Source: Rhodovulum adriaticum (GTDB lineage Bacteria; Pseudomonadota; Alphaproteobacteria; Rhodobacterales; Rhodobacteraceae). From it: DNA of 64,000 nt. The position numbers were made by a program, and so were the translations under genes. Location of the stretch: the NCBI RefSeq assembly GCF_004345735.1, contig NZ_SLXL01000004.1, positions 124,001-188,000 of the forward strand, in the 5' to 3' direction. Positions 2,451 through 61,813 of this stretch are shown one piece after another (positions within the stretch are counted from its first letter, which is position 1; every line of letters begins with the position of its first letter). The notes under the pieces are model-generated. The model was given only the letters and a program-made list of their open reading frames with translations, did not search any database and had not been told where the DNA came from.

Positions 2451-2485
2451 AAAAACGCCGTGGGAGGGAGGGCCCACGGCGTTTT
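2451..2485 (-). terminator. Strong hairpin terminator facing the minus strand
   Basis: A 13-bp perfect stem (AAAACGCCGTGGG / CCCACGGCGTTTT) encloses an 8-base loop. On the minus strand it is followed by TTTTTCTTTT, an intrinsic-terminator arrangement, and the loop reads CCCTCCCT. On the plus strand it follows the PqiA-like gene and ends in only four T, so it may also act weakly in that direction. I take it as the 3' end of the candidate small RNA described next. Confidence 0.85.
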
Positions 2486-2595
2486 GATACTTGGCGCGTC
2501 GGGAGGGAGGGCCCTCGGCGCCTGGGAAACCTGTGTTGGGAAAAGACACAGGGATCGCCTGCAGGGTGTTTTCTACAGGTTGGGAAAGCCTGTAG
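2451..2595 (-). ncRNA. Candidate multi-hairpin small RNA with pyrimidine loops
   Basis: Reading the minus strand, four hairpins follow one another. H1 (2595-2573) has a 7-bp stem and loop CTTTCCCAA. H2 (2552-2530) has a 7-bp stem and loop CTTTTCCCA. H3 (2522-2493) is imperfect with a CCCTCCCT loop. H4 (2485-2452) is a terminator with the same CCCTCCCT loop. Loops rich in CCUCC-like sequence are known from the Rhodobacteraceae 'cuckoo'/CcsR small RNAs, which carry an anti-Shine-Dalgarno-like CCUCCUCCC in two stem-loops. This copy differs in loop sequence and has two additional UUCCC loops. The 5' end is not certain; a possible promoter lies at 2589-2617. It could also be a processed 3' UTR of the VWA gene that ends at 2662. 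Confidence 0.6.
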
Positions 2596-2617
2596 CGCCG
2601 CAAACGATGAATGTCAA
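2589..2617 (-). promoter_or_regulatory. Possible sigma-70-type promoter for the hairpin RNA
   Basis: On the minus strand TTGACA (2617-2612) is followed after 17 bases by TACAGG (2594-2589). The -35 is perfect and the -10 is poor. The -10 would overlap the first hairpin stem, so transcription would begin inside H1. This makes the promoter uncertain, and processing from the upstream gene is an alternative. Confidence 0.3.
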
Positions 2618-2661: not shown

Positions 2662-3921
2662 TCAGGAATGTCGCAATTGCCGGATCAAACGGTCCCGCTC
2701 GCCGCTGTCATGGGCGCTGGACAGGGCTGCGGCCAGGTCCTCGATCACCTGGATCGAATGGCCCGCGCGAAAGCAATCCACATGGGGCAGCATCGCGCGA
2801 ATGCCGCGCGCCCTGGGGGCAAAGCCGTCCCAACGCAGCAGCGGGTTGATCCATACCAGCCGCCGGGCAGACAGGTGCAGGCGTTCCATCTCGGGGGCCA
2901 GGCGGCCGCCCTCGTCCCGGTCCAGCCCGTCGGTAATCAGTAACACCACCGCGCCCGTACCCAGCACCCGCCGCGACCAGTCGCGGTTGAAGGCATGCAC
3001 CGCCCCCGCGATCCGCGTGCCGCCCTCCCAGTCCGGGGCCTGCGCGCCTGCCGCGGCCAGGGCCGCATCGACATCGCGGGTGGCCAGCGTGCGGGTGATG
3101 TTGGTCAGACGCGTGCCAAAGGTAAAGGCATGCACCCTGGCCCAGCCCGCGCCCTGGGTATTGGCCACCGCATGCACGAAATGCAGCACCATGCGGGAAT
3201 AGGCCGACATGGACCCAGAGATGTCGCACAGCACCACAAGGTTCGGCCAACGGGTGCGCCTGTTCTTTTGCGCGAAATCGCGGATCTCGCCGCCCTGACG
3301 CAACGCGGACCGCATTGTGCCGCGCCAGTCGGGCAGCTTGCCATGGGGGGCGGAACGGGTGCGCCGGGTGCGGATCGGCGGAACGGGCAGGCGCAGCTTG
3401 GCCAGCATGCGCTTGGCTTCGGCGACCTCGGCGGTGCTCATCTGTTCGAAATCGAGGGTCTTGAGCCGTTCGCGCGCCGATTGGGTCTGCTGGGCGTTGA
3501 TCTCGATCTCTTCGCCCGCCTCGGCGTCGGGCAGGTCCGGCAGGTCGCGTTCCACCCCGTCCAGCAACGCCTCGGCGGCGCGCTTCTCGGCGGCGCGGGC
3601 GGTGCGTTCCTCGGCCACGCCGCGCATCGCGGGCAGCATCATGCTCATCATGTGTTCCAGGAACCGCGGATCGCGCCAGTAAAGCCGGAACACCTGGTCG
3701 AACACCTGCCGGTGTTCGGGGCGCGACAGGAAACAGGCGGCGAGCGTGTGGTAGAAATCGCCGCGTTCCGAAAACCCCGCCGCCTCGACCGCGCGGATCG
3801 CGTCGATCGCCCGGCCCGGCCCCACCGGCAGCCCCGCCTTGCGCAGGGCGCGCGCAAAGTGAAGGATGTTGTGGGACAGCTTGCCGTCGTCGGGGATGTC
3901 GAGGCGGGACAGGTCAGCCAT
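2662..3921 (-). CDS. VWA-domain protein, CoxE-like
   Basis: This protein of about 419 residues has a C-terminal von Willebrand A domain. The metal-binding DISGS (MIDAS) motif is at about residues 233-237, preceded by a charged, helical region. Proteins of this type pair with MoxR AAA ATPases and are thought to act as chaperones for metal-centre or complex assembly. The start at 3921 (MADLSRLD) is chosen because the 24 residues that could precede it come from an intergenic palindrome. The MoxR gene lies directly upstream. No molybdenum hydroxylase or gas vesicle gene is nearby, so the client is unknown. Confidence 0.85.
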   Translation of the reverse strand: MADLSRLDIPDDGKLSHNILHFARALRKAGLPVGPGRAIDAIRAVEAAGFSERGDFYHTLAACFLSRPEHRQVFDQVFRLYWRDPRFLEHMMSMMLPAMRGVAEERTARAAEKRAAEALLDGVERDLPDLPDAEAGEEIEINAQQTQSARERLKTLDFEQMSTAEVAEAKRMLAKLRLPVPPIRTRRTRSAPHGKLPDWRGTMRSALRQGGEIRDFAQKNRRTRWPNLVVLCDISGSMSAYSRMVLHFVHAVANTQGAGWARVHAFTFGTRLTNITRTLATRDVDAALAAAGAQAPDWEGGTRIAGAVHAFNRDWSRRVLGTGAVVLLITDGLDRDEGGRLAPEMERLHLSARRLVWINPLLRWDGFAPRARGIRAMLPHVDCFRAGHSIQVIEDLAAALSSAHDSGERDRLIRQLRHS

Positions 3922-3935
3922 GGCAAACCGCCCGC

Positions 3936-4002
3936 AGGATGGAGAGACCGGGGGGCCGTCTGCCCCCCAGCCACCCCGAGGATATTTTTCCAAAGCAGGA
4001 CA
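3936..4002 (+). repeat. Rhodobacteraceae intergenic palindrome, copy 1
   Basis: A GGGGGGCCG...CCCCCC palindrome is followed by CCCCGAGGATATTTTTCCAA. The layout of G/C palindrome, CCCC-G-GG(T/A)TATTT and CCAA(A/G) matches copies at 21604-21670 and, in part, 9873-9902. It lies between the MoxR-like and VWA genes. Such elements are common in this family; their function is unknown to me. Confidence 0.65.
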
Positions 4003-36942: not shown

Positions 36943-37018
36943 GCCCCTATAGCTCAGCTGGTAGAGCATCTGATTTGTAATCAGAGGGTCGGGAGTTCGA
37001 GTCTCTCTGGGGGCACCA
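36943..37018 (+). tRNA. tRNA-Thr (anticodon TGT)
   Basis: A full cloverleaf is visible. The acceptor stem GCCCCTA pairs with TGGGGGC, the anticodon loop TTTGTAA lies in the TCTGA/TCAGA stem, the T-loop is GTTCGAGTC, and the CCA end is encoded. Confidence 0.96.
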
Positions 37019-37207: not shown

Positions 37208-37297
37208 TGGCGGAGAGACAGGGATTCGAACCCTGGAGACGGTTTCCCGCCTACACGCGTTCCAGGCGTGCGCCTTCGACCACTCGGCCACCTCTCC
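37208..37297 (-). tRNA. tRNA-Ser (anticodon GGA)
   Basis: On the minus strand acceptor GGAGAGG pairs with the 3' TCTCTCC, the D arm is GGCCGAGTGG, and the anticodon loop CTGGAAC lies between GCACGC and GCGTGT. A long variable arm typical of serine tRNA and GGTTCGAATCC in the T arm follow. CCA is encoded. Confidence 0.96.
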
Positions 37298-52218: not shown

Positions 52219-52745
52219 GATGTACCTGCTCGATGCGCCTCTTGCGGACGCGTTGCTGACAAGATCATACCGATTTGACGGTGATCGGTCCAGCATCCGC
52301 TGACCGCCGCCGCCACGCGCCCTGATCGGGCTTGAACCCCGGCGCGACAATGCCTACCTTTGGAATGCCCCTCGGGGCTATGGCGATAAACGCGCCCGTA
52401 ATAAGCGGATCGGACCCGGGGGCGGTACCCGGCGGCTCCACCAAGCTCCCTCATTGGCGGGATCATGGGGCCGAAACAGGATCGACGGACGTCTAAAGGG
52501 GTTAGCCTTCGCCCGGTGAGCGACCACCGTTATCGGTGCAAGCATGATAGTTGCCAATGACAACCGTGCTCCGGTGGCCGTTGCTGCGTAATGCGGTAAC
52601 CAAACCGAAAACTTGAAGTCCTGTTCCTCTAGCAAGGGCAGGCGGGGTTCGCAGGTACCTGGCAACAGAAACCTGCACTTTCCCCTTTACCGAACGTGAA
52701 CGGTTTTCCGTGACAACGATCCTGCAAACAGGATTGGGGTCCAGG
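52219..52745. other. Gene-free stretch upstream of the Hint gene
   Basis: This stretch of about 530 bases has lower GC than its neighbours and no open frame with the codon pattern of true genes. It probably contains the promoters of the Hint-domain gene (leftward) and of the SnoaL-like gene (rightward). A short GCCCCTCGGGGC palindrome is present near 52367. I see no clear operator, repeat or RNA. Confidence 0.5.
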
Positions 52746-61736: not shown

Positions 61737-61813
61737 TGGTCGGAGTGAGAGGATTCGAACCTCCGGCCCCTGCCTCCCGAAGACAGTGCTCTACCAGGCT
61801 GAGCTACACTCCG
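61737..61813 (-). tRNA. tRNA-Pro (anticodon CGG)
   Basis: On the minus strand acceptor CGGAGTG pairs with CACTCCG, the D arm is AGCTCAGCCTGG, the anticodon loop TTCGGGA lies in CTGTC/GGCAG, the T arm is GGTTCGAATCC, and the CCA end is encoded. Confidence 0.96.

Follow-up and report, generated by a model that had tools for sequence, protein, structure and literature searches.

What is encoded by the row of hairpins on the minus strand near the start of a 64,000-nt stretch of the Rhodovulum adriaticum genome (contig NZ_SLXL01000004.1, positions 124,001 to 188,000; hereafter the window, numbered from its first letter)? An initial annotation, made from the letters alone, had described four consecutive hairpins at 2451-2600, behind a gene for a VWA (CoxE-like) protein, as a candidate small RNA (sRNA). 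Our analysis points to a stand-alone gene for a trans-acting sRNA that would be activated by FnrL at low oxygen and whose anti-Shine-Dalgarno loops would reduce how well several mRNAs are translated and how stable they are, a reading to which we assign a probability of roughly 0.75. The structure, its compensatory changes, the invariance of its loops, the architecture of its promoter, its conservation, and its separateness from the cuckoo/CcsR RNAs and from PcrZ are computed results, presented below. The Rhodovulum gene has apparently gone uncatalogued so far.

Four hairpins with C-rich loops and an outer stem

Sequence and fold agreed on four minus-strand hairpins at the place where they had been noted. 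H1 (2573-2595) presents the loop CUUUCCCAA (UUUCCC) and H2 (2530-2552) the loop CUUUUCCCA (UUUUCCC), while H3 (2493-2522) and H4 (2452-2485) both present CCCUCCCU, matching the two UUCCC-type and two other loops of the initial annotation. H4, which had been taken for a terminator, is an intrinsic terminator: UUUUUCUUUU follows it, and the U-run spans 2446-2455. Folding positions 2440-2620 gave -68.5 kcal/mol, compared with -47.6 +/- 4.0 for 200 dinucleotide shuffles (z -5.2), none of which was as stable. The hairpins lie within the extent first given for them, but an outer stem enclosing H1 had been overlooked. This stem, P0, is an 11-bp helix between 2598-2608 (5' half) and 2554-2564 (3' half), and the 5' end of the element is probably near 2608, not 2600. 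The predicted sRNA of about 161 nt would occupy 2448-2608 on the minus strand, with its start set by the -41.5 rule (see below) and its end placed in the U-run.

The loop of H3 differed among folds. In the window the minimum-energy fold closes H3 with a 4-nt loop (GAGGG-CCCU-CCCUC), as it does in L009 and L011, and the remaining Rhodovulum sequences fold with an 8-nt CCCUCCCU or similar loop; the unconstrained fold of L011 rearranges H1 and H2 as well. As a measure of background, hairpins with a stem of 6 bp or more and an unpaired YUCCC motif were counted on both strands of 80 named VWA loci with the element region excluded, giving 83 in 1,050,994 bases, or 0.079 per kb. Over nine named Rhodovulum loci that contain the element, the same strict finder returned four hairpins in five loci, three in two and two in two. 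A genomic repeat family was rejected as an explanation, because a repeat search of the R. adriaticum genome (3.35 Mb, 36 contigs) gave no second copy of the element below E 0.5.

Stems vary around constant loops

A 181-nt query was compared with 61 genomes, namely that of R. adriaticum and 60 relatives, and matched at E ≤6.9e-5 in 16 of 16 Rhodovulum genomes, its own included. Matches of any kind at E ≤1 occurred in 45 of the 61, the best outside the genus (G023, E 1.7e-4) spanning 30 nt. The initial annotation had said that it would be contradicted by stems not conserved in relatives with the same neighbours; every one of the 16 Rhodovulum genomes has the element downstream of its CoxE-type VWA gene. 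Fourteen of the 16 sequences, each with four hairpins, make up alignment A1, from which L022 and L023 (G010) were left out. These two carry five YUCCC hairpins rather than four, so that hairpin number varies inside Rhodovulum.

Two-sided changes were abundant in A1: 19 of 51 pairs changed on both sides, in 54 cells, whereas shuffles gave 11.6 pairs and 19.7 cells, with 0 of 500 reaching the observed values, although these counts are biased in favor of the structure, which was derived from the same sequences. When pairing partners were slid, at most 11 pairs and at most 16 cells showed such changes. The covariation score was 0.238, compared with 0.153 in shuffles (0 of 500 as high) and at most 0.095 with slid partners. 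Individual helices contributed differently. Both sides had changed in 5 of the 11 pairs of P0, and in 7 of the 9 pairs of H1, where stem columns averaged 60% identity around a UUCCC invariant in 14 of 14 sequences. H2 had double changes in 3 of 7 pairs with UCCC invariant in all 14; H3 had them in 4 of 11, yet with 72% of cells paired, and CUCCCUCCC was again invariant in 14 of 14. The low pairing of H3 may partly reflect one species group that appears to sit one column out in A1. In H4, 24 of 26 stem columns are invariant, and it therefore gives no covariation evidence for pairing. Across Rhodovulum, then, the loop motifs are constant while the stems vary with many compensatory changes.

This pattern bears on the explanation that the region is only a terminator, with H4 ending the VWA and pqiA-like operons and H1-H3 functionless. 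H4 could be a bidirectional terminator in the window, and the one YUCCC hairpin found at a locus of another genus (L055) is the terminator hairpin, whose loop is CCCUCCCU. Termination, however, requires neither two-sided changes in P0, H1, H2 and H3, nor invariant loops, nor a conserved promoter, and H4 was retained with H1-H3 lost in 0 of the 16 Rhodovulum genomes; we regard this explanation as very improbable.

An FNR-type promoter at fixed spacing

Between the hairpins and the VWA gene lies a promoter-like arrangement that the initial annotation had overlooked. An FNR/FnrL-type box, TTGATCTGGATCAA, occupies 2643-2656 on the minus strand, starting 5 nt past the VWA stop codon, and a -10 element, TGCATT (TRCATY), stands exactly 20 nt 3' of it at 2617-2622 on the same strand. 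The box reads TTGATNNNNATCAA (TTGATN4ATCAA) in 15 of 16 Rhodovulum genomes and has a single mismatch in the 16th, and a TRCATY hexamer is found at the identical 20-nt distance in all 16. A composite pattern (box, 19-22 nt, TRCAT, 60-90 nt, YTCCC) occurred in 15 of the 16 genomes and at this locus only; reversed, it had 0 matches in the same 16. Class II activators act from 41.5 nt before the start. Measured from the box, this distance predicts a start at A2608, the first base of P0, so the RNA would begin as a stem. All 16 Rhodovulum genomes thus have a consensus box and a -10 element separated by the class II distance, as in FNR-dependent promoters.

The R. adriaticum genome encodes a CRP/FNR protein with an N-terminal cysteine cluster, CSDCPIRHRAVCARC, which we take to mark an FNR-type iron-sulphur regulator. 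In addition, TTGATCTGGATCAA fits the consensus (T/C/A)TGA-N6-TCAA obtained for R. capsulatus FnrL by chromatin immunoprecipitation sequencing (ChIP-seq) (PMC4634722). Judged by its promoter sequence, the element is most likely an sRNA gene under FNR/FnrL-type control. The initial annotation had left the choice between an extended or variant cuckoo-type RNA and a new class; the box and -10 (2617-2656) argue for a separately regulated sRNA gene and not merely a variant.

The promoter also weighs on whether the RNA might instead be derived from a 3' untranslated region, processed from the VWA operon mRNA and lacking a promoter of its own. The predicted start is on the strand of the VWA gene, about 53 nt past its stop codon, and PcrX and CcsR1-4 of R. 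sphaeroides are described as processed from 3' untranslated regions (PMC8307010). Against such an origin stand the box and -10, whose spacing is the same in all 16 Rhodovulum genomes, as well as a related array in another genome (G346, E 1.2e-14) that shares a contig with the VWA gene at a distance of some 113 kb and has an FNR-type box of its own, TTGATCTGGGTCAA, 22 nt before TACATC. Processing from the operon mRNA is accordingly an improbable source of the RNA.

In several Rhodovulum a second FNR-like box was noted just 3' of the terminator (L010, L014, L015 and L020, and by eye also L047), and in some, judged by eye, a co-directional gene starts shortly afterwards (L042-L045). A locus with both a second box and a co-directional gene may comprise two FNR-controlled units.

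Strand and neighboring genes

The upstream gene occupies 2662-3993 on the minus strand (open frame; the likelier ATG is at 3921), and its product matches Pfam VWA_CoxE at E 1.5e-62, bearing out the location first proposed. A VWA protein scan of named genomes placed nine Rhodovulum species in the ten best loci, at 78-82% identity. Beyond the terminator, a convergent PqiA-domain gene ends at 2440, and the hairpins are therefore no leader in the window. The promoter would place the RNA on the minus strand, and the pair counts lean the same way, with 69 G-U cells in the minus RNA versus 17 C-A cells (G-U on the plus strand), a count biased by taking the structure from the minus strand.

We considered the possibility that the plus strand is the functional RNA, with GGGA loops like those of RNAs that sequester CsrA/RsmA. 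CsrA binds GGA in loops. The plus-strand loops read UUGGGAAAG and AGGGAGGG, and the plus strand folds about as stably as the minus. The position of the promoter and the G-U count favor the minus strand, and by eye the next gene is co-directional with the minus RNA in several species; we find a plus-strand RNA highly improbable. Elsewhere in the window are an alpha_tmRNA match (52328-52679, plus strand, 281.7 bits) and tRNA genes at 36943-37015, 37211-37297 and 61740-61813.

Relationship to alpha-r14, cuckoo and CcsR RNAs

The element had been called related to, but different from, the cuckoo/CcsR RNAs, a judgment that comparison with Rfam upheld. The nearest model was ar14 (36.3 bits, E 1.9e-5), below its gathering threshold of 58.8; ten other matches up to E 10 were weaker and likewise below threshold, and the CcsR1 model was absent among these 11. 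The description of ar14 cites the cuckoo family paper, and alpha-r14 loops are described as anti-Shine-Dalgarno motifs, constant on variable stems (PMC10746234). Like the alpha-r14/cuckoo RNAs (RF02344; SmelA075, NfeR1; PMC10746234, PMC3927594), the element comprises several hairpins in a row whose stems vary and whose loops, all of the anti-Shine-Dalgarno type, are constant and C-rich. Unlike them, it carries UUUCCC, UUUUCCC and CCCUCCCU where those RNAs carry CCUCCUCCC, a motif found in none of its loops, and it has four hairpins plus an outer stem, an FNR-type promoter, and a score of 36.3 bits where the threshold is 58.8.

CcsR1-4/RSs0680a (RF02791) are similar in belonging to Rhodobacteraceae and in their C-rich anti-Shine-Dalgarno loops. 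RSs0680a is described with two stem loops and the motif in each (PMC3927594), and the CcsR RNAs as cotranscribed with the DUF1127 gene ccaF1 from an RpoHI/RpoHII promoter (PMC10253847). In contrast, the gene in front of the Rhodovulum element encodes a VWA_CoxE protein, not a ccaF1-like DUF1127 protein. The two DUF1127 genes found in the R. adriaticum genome (L188, L189) are on other contigs, and no CCUCCUCCC array was present in the stretch read behind them.

The genome has a cuckoo/CcsR-type array of its own, made of CTCCTCCC pairs, at G000:C2:286877-287027 (L195). It consists of two tandem units of two CCUCCUCCC hairpins each and adjoins, by eye, an Mrp/ApbC-like ATPase gene, with no DUF1127 neighbor. 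Since CTCCTCCC pairs occur in 15 of 16 Rhodovulum genomes, the two kinds of array coexist there. The L195 array scored 54.8 bits with CcsR1 (threshold 65.3) and 47.2 with ar14 (threshold 58.8), reaching neither gathering threshold; because this CCUCCUCCC array also falls short, the threshold alone is weak evidence against membership. Model R1, which we used for covariance-type searches, gave 145.6 bits for the window locus and 20.1 for L195.

The element could nonetheless be a true cuckoo/CcsR (alpha-r14) member with drifted loops under another promoter. Such membership would account for the similar architecture and for ar14 being the best Rfam match, the Rfam threshold is no sharp border, and model R1 weakly scored ten Rhodovulum cuckoo-type loci (14.8-24.7 bits) and gave 41.9 bits for a cuckoo-like array of another genus (L122). 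We judged it unlikely nevertheless, and set the element apart because of its loop motif, its neighboring gene, its FNR-type box and the coexistence of both kinds in 15 genomes, along with the lack of a CcsR1 match, rather than because of a threshold.

Looser relatives outside Rhodovulum

The initial annotation had proposed a covariance search across Rhodobacteraceae; with model R1, such a search matched 33 of 394 genomes at E ≤0.1, two of them Rhodovulum. Loci were read for 28 of the 31 matches outside the genus, three being without a locus. Scanning about 500 nt at each, we found a TTGAN6TCAA box in 11 of the 28, whereas the other 70,160 nt of these loci contained 3; in two more (G389, G364) such a box lies further upstream. 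Seven loci follow the VWA gene on its own strand, at a distance of no more than about 650 nt (G389, G360, G063, G221, G270, G255 and G364). At one of these (G389; L150, G389:C30:5200-9500), two arrays come one after the other behind the box, and the part scanned holds at least seven YUCCC hairpins.

In genomes of two genera, G027 (L258) and G293 (L259), an FNR-type box and a CUCCC-loop array are convergent with infC (Pfam IF3). In a third genus (G031, L256) the upstream gene is, by eye, the same as in G293, and infC was not present within the 950 nt read. The infC-convergent site is a second conserved place for such an RNA.

By no means all of the 31 outside matches are relatives: several of the 28 loci read are cuckoo-like arrays (e.g. 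G081 and G357) and others are simply terminators. Sampling the whole class, we obtained weak matches (E 1.6e-4 to 8.4e-3) in 5 of 288 other genomes, by eye ordinary terminators or chance, with no TTGAN6TCAA box in the scanned stretch of any of the five. We tentatively entertain a Rhodobacteraceae-wide, locus-hopping family of FNR-driven 'poly-anti-Shine-Dalgarno' RNAs, with evolvable rows of YUCCC hairpins at the VWA gene, infC and other sites; Rhodovulum has four or five such hairpins, and one other genus has at least seven, divided between two consecutive arrays. Members of such a family might act as a broad low-oxygen brake on translation whose strength or range is tuned by loop number, an idea in which we place less than even confidence.

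Proposed mechanism and candidate targets

We infer transcription, FnrL binding, the direction of regulation and the targets as follows. At low oxygen, FnrL would bind TTGATCTGGATCAA, whose midpoint is some 41.5 nt ahead of the start, and activate transcription of an RNA of about 161 nt, made with the P0 stem first and the terminator hairpin H4 last. The four loops (UUUCCC, UUUUCCC and two of CCCUCCCU) would copy the anti-Shine-Dalgarno sequence of 16S rRNA and pair with several mRNAs at their G-rich ribosome-binding sites, so that these mRNAs would be translated less and be less stable. The stems would chiefly display the loops, which would leave stem sequence and hairpin number free to vary. 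For the alpha-r14 RNA NfeR1, genetic tests are reported to have confirmed that some targets are silenced and that the loop motifs are redundant (PMC7143759), and by analogy the Rhodovulum RNA probably silences several mRNAs at low oxygen.

A search of the 16 Rhodovulum genomes for GGAGGGAG-N3-11-ATG returned 133 sites, including four at the element locus itself, on its plus strand, compared with 34 for the backwards pattern. By eye, genes resembling those for ribosomal protein S14 and for the RuBisCO small subunit came up repeatedly among the target-pattern loci, in a few species.

Besides the bias in the pair counts, several observations weigh against an FnrL-activated, minus-strand regulator of many mRNAs. 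Among the 37 loci read from the Shine-Dalgarno-pattern search of the 16 genomes, no target was common to most, and the target step is therefore drawn by analogy. At least two further CRP/FNR-like proteins of the genome, which are without the cysteine cluster, could use the box; FnrL is thus the likeliest regulator, judged by sequence, and not the sole candidate. One covariation measure, 'further pair types', was equalled by 54 of 500 shuffles, and 13.4% of A1 cells are unpaired, mostly in H3. Finally, fold energy is uninformative on strand, the minus strand being the more stable in 8 of 16 genomes.

Comparison with FnrL-linked and other anti-Shine-Dalgarno sRNAs

PcrZ of R. sphaeroides is similar in being an sRNA of an FnrL-linked low-oxygen circuit (PMC8307010). 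At the published PcrZ coordinate (PMC6238624) of R. sphaeroides G090, the fold contained no YUCCC-loop hairpins and model R1 had no match; with different loops and no recognition by R1, orthology to PcrZ was rejected. Near the published position G090 carries TTGATGCGGATCAA, an FNR box downstream of PcrZ that is listed as the FnrL site of cytochrome b561 RSP0820 (PMC4634722). Neither box nor array was found in the 420 nt behind the R. sphaeroides VWA gene, and the best R1 match in that whole genome was at E 5.7. Two further R. sphaeroides sRNAs, Pos19 (RSs0019) and StsR (RSs2461), resemble the element in that FnrL ChIP-seq sites fall within their presumed promoters (PMC4263372), but they went unrecognized by model R1. 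The same source gives 13 FnrL ChIP-seq sites with no annotated gene behind them, two of which precede RSs0019 and RSs2461. Genes like the one described here are one possible reason for such sites.

FnrS of E. coli is alike in kind of control, and AniS of Neisseria is made under oxygen limitation (PMC5362039); the excerpts do not describe either as a row of anti-Shine-Dalgarno hairpins, and the distinction is one between descriptions. IsrR of Staphylococcus and NmsRA/B of Neisseria similarly direct C-rich or UC-rich unpaired regions at the Shine-Dalgarno sequences of several metabolic mRNAs (PMC9410917, PMC5362039); they belong to other phyla, and IsrR is controlled by Fur. Among the matches listed in our search of the open-access literature there was no such Rhodovulum sRNA and no FNR-driven anti-Shine-Dalgarno array.

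With a build like that of cuckoo/alpha-r14 RNAs and control like that of FnrS, the element is, by the tests run, a clear member of neither group. The array also offers a ready-made series in which to study how far an sRNA's strength depends on how many similar binding loops it carries. It would join the multi-loop anti-Shine-Dalgarno sRNAs (cuckoo, alpha-r14) with the FNR-controlled sRNAs, a joining not found among the matches listed, and if this is correct, low-oxygen adaptation in these bacteria gains a post-transcriptional arm distinct from both PcrZ and the CcsR RNAs induced by stress.
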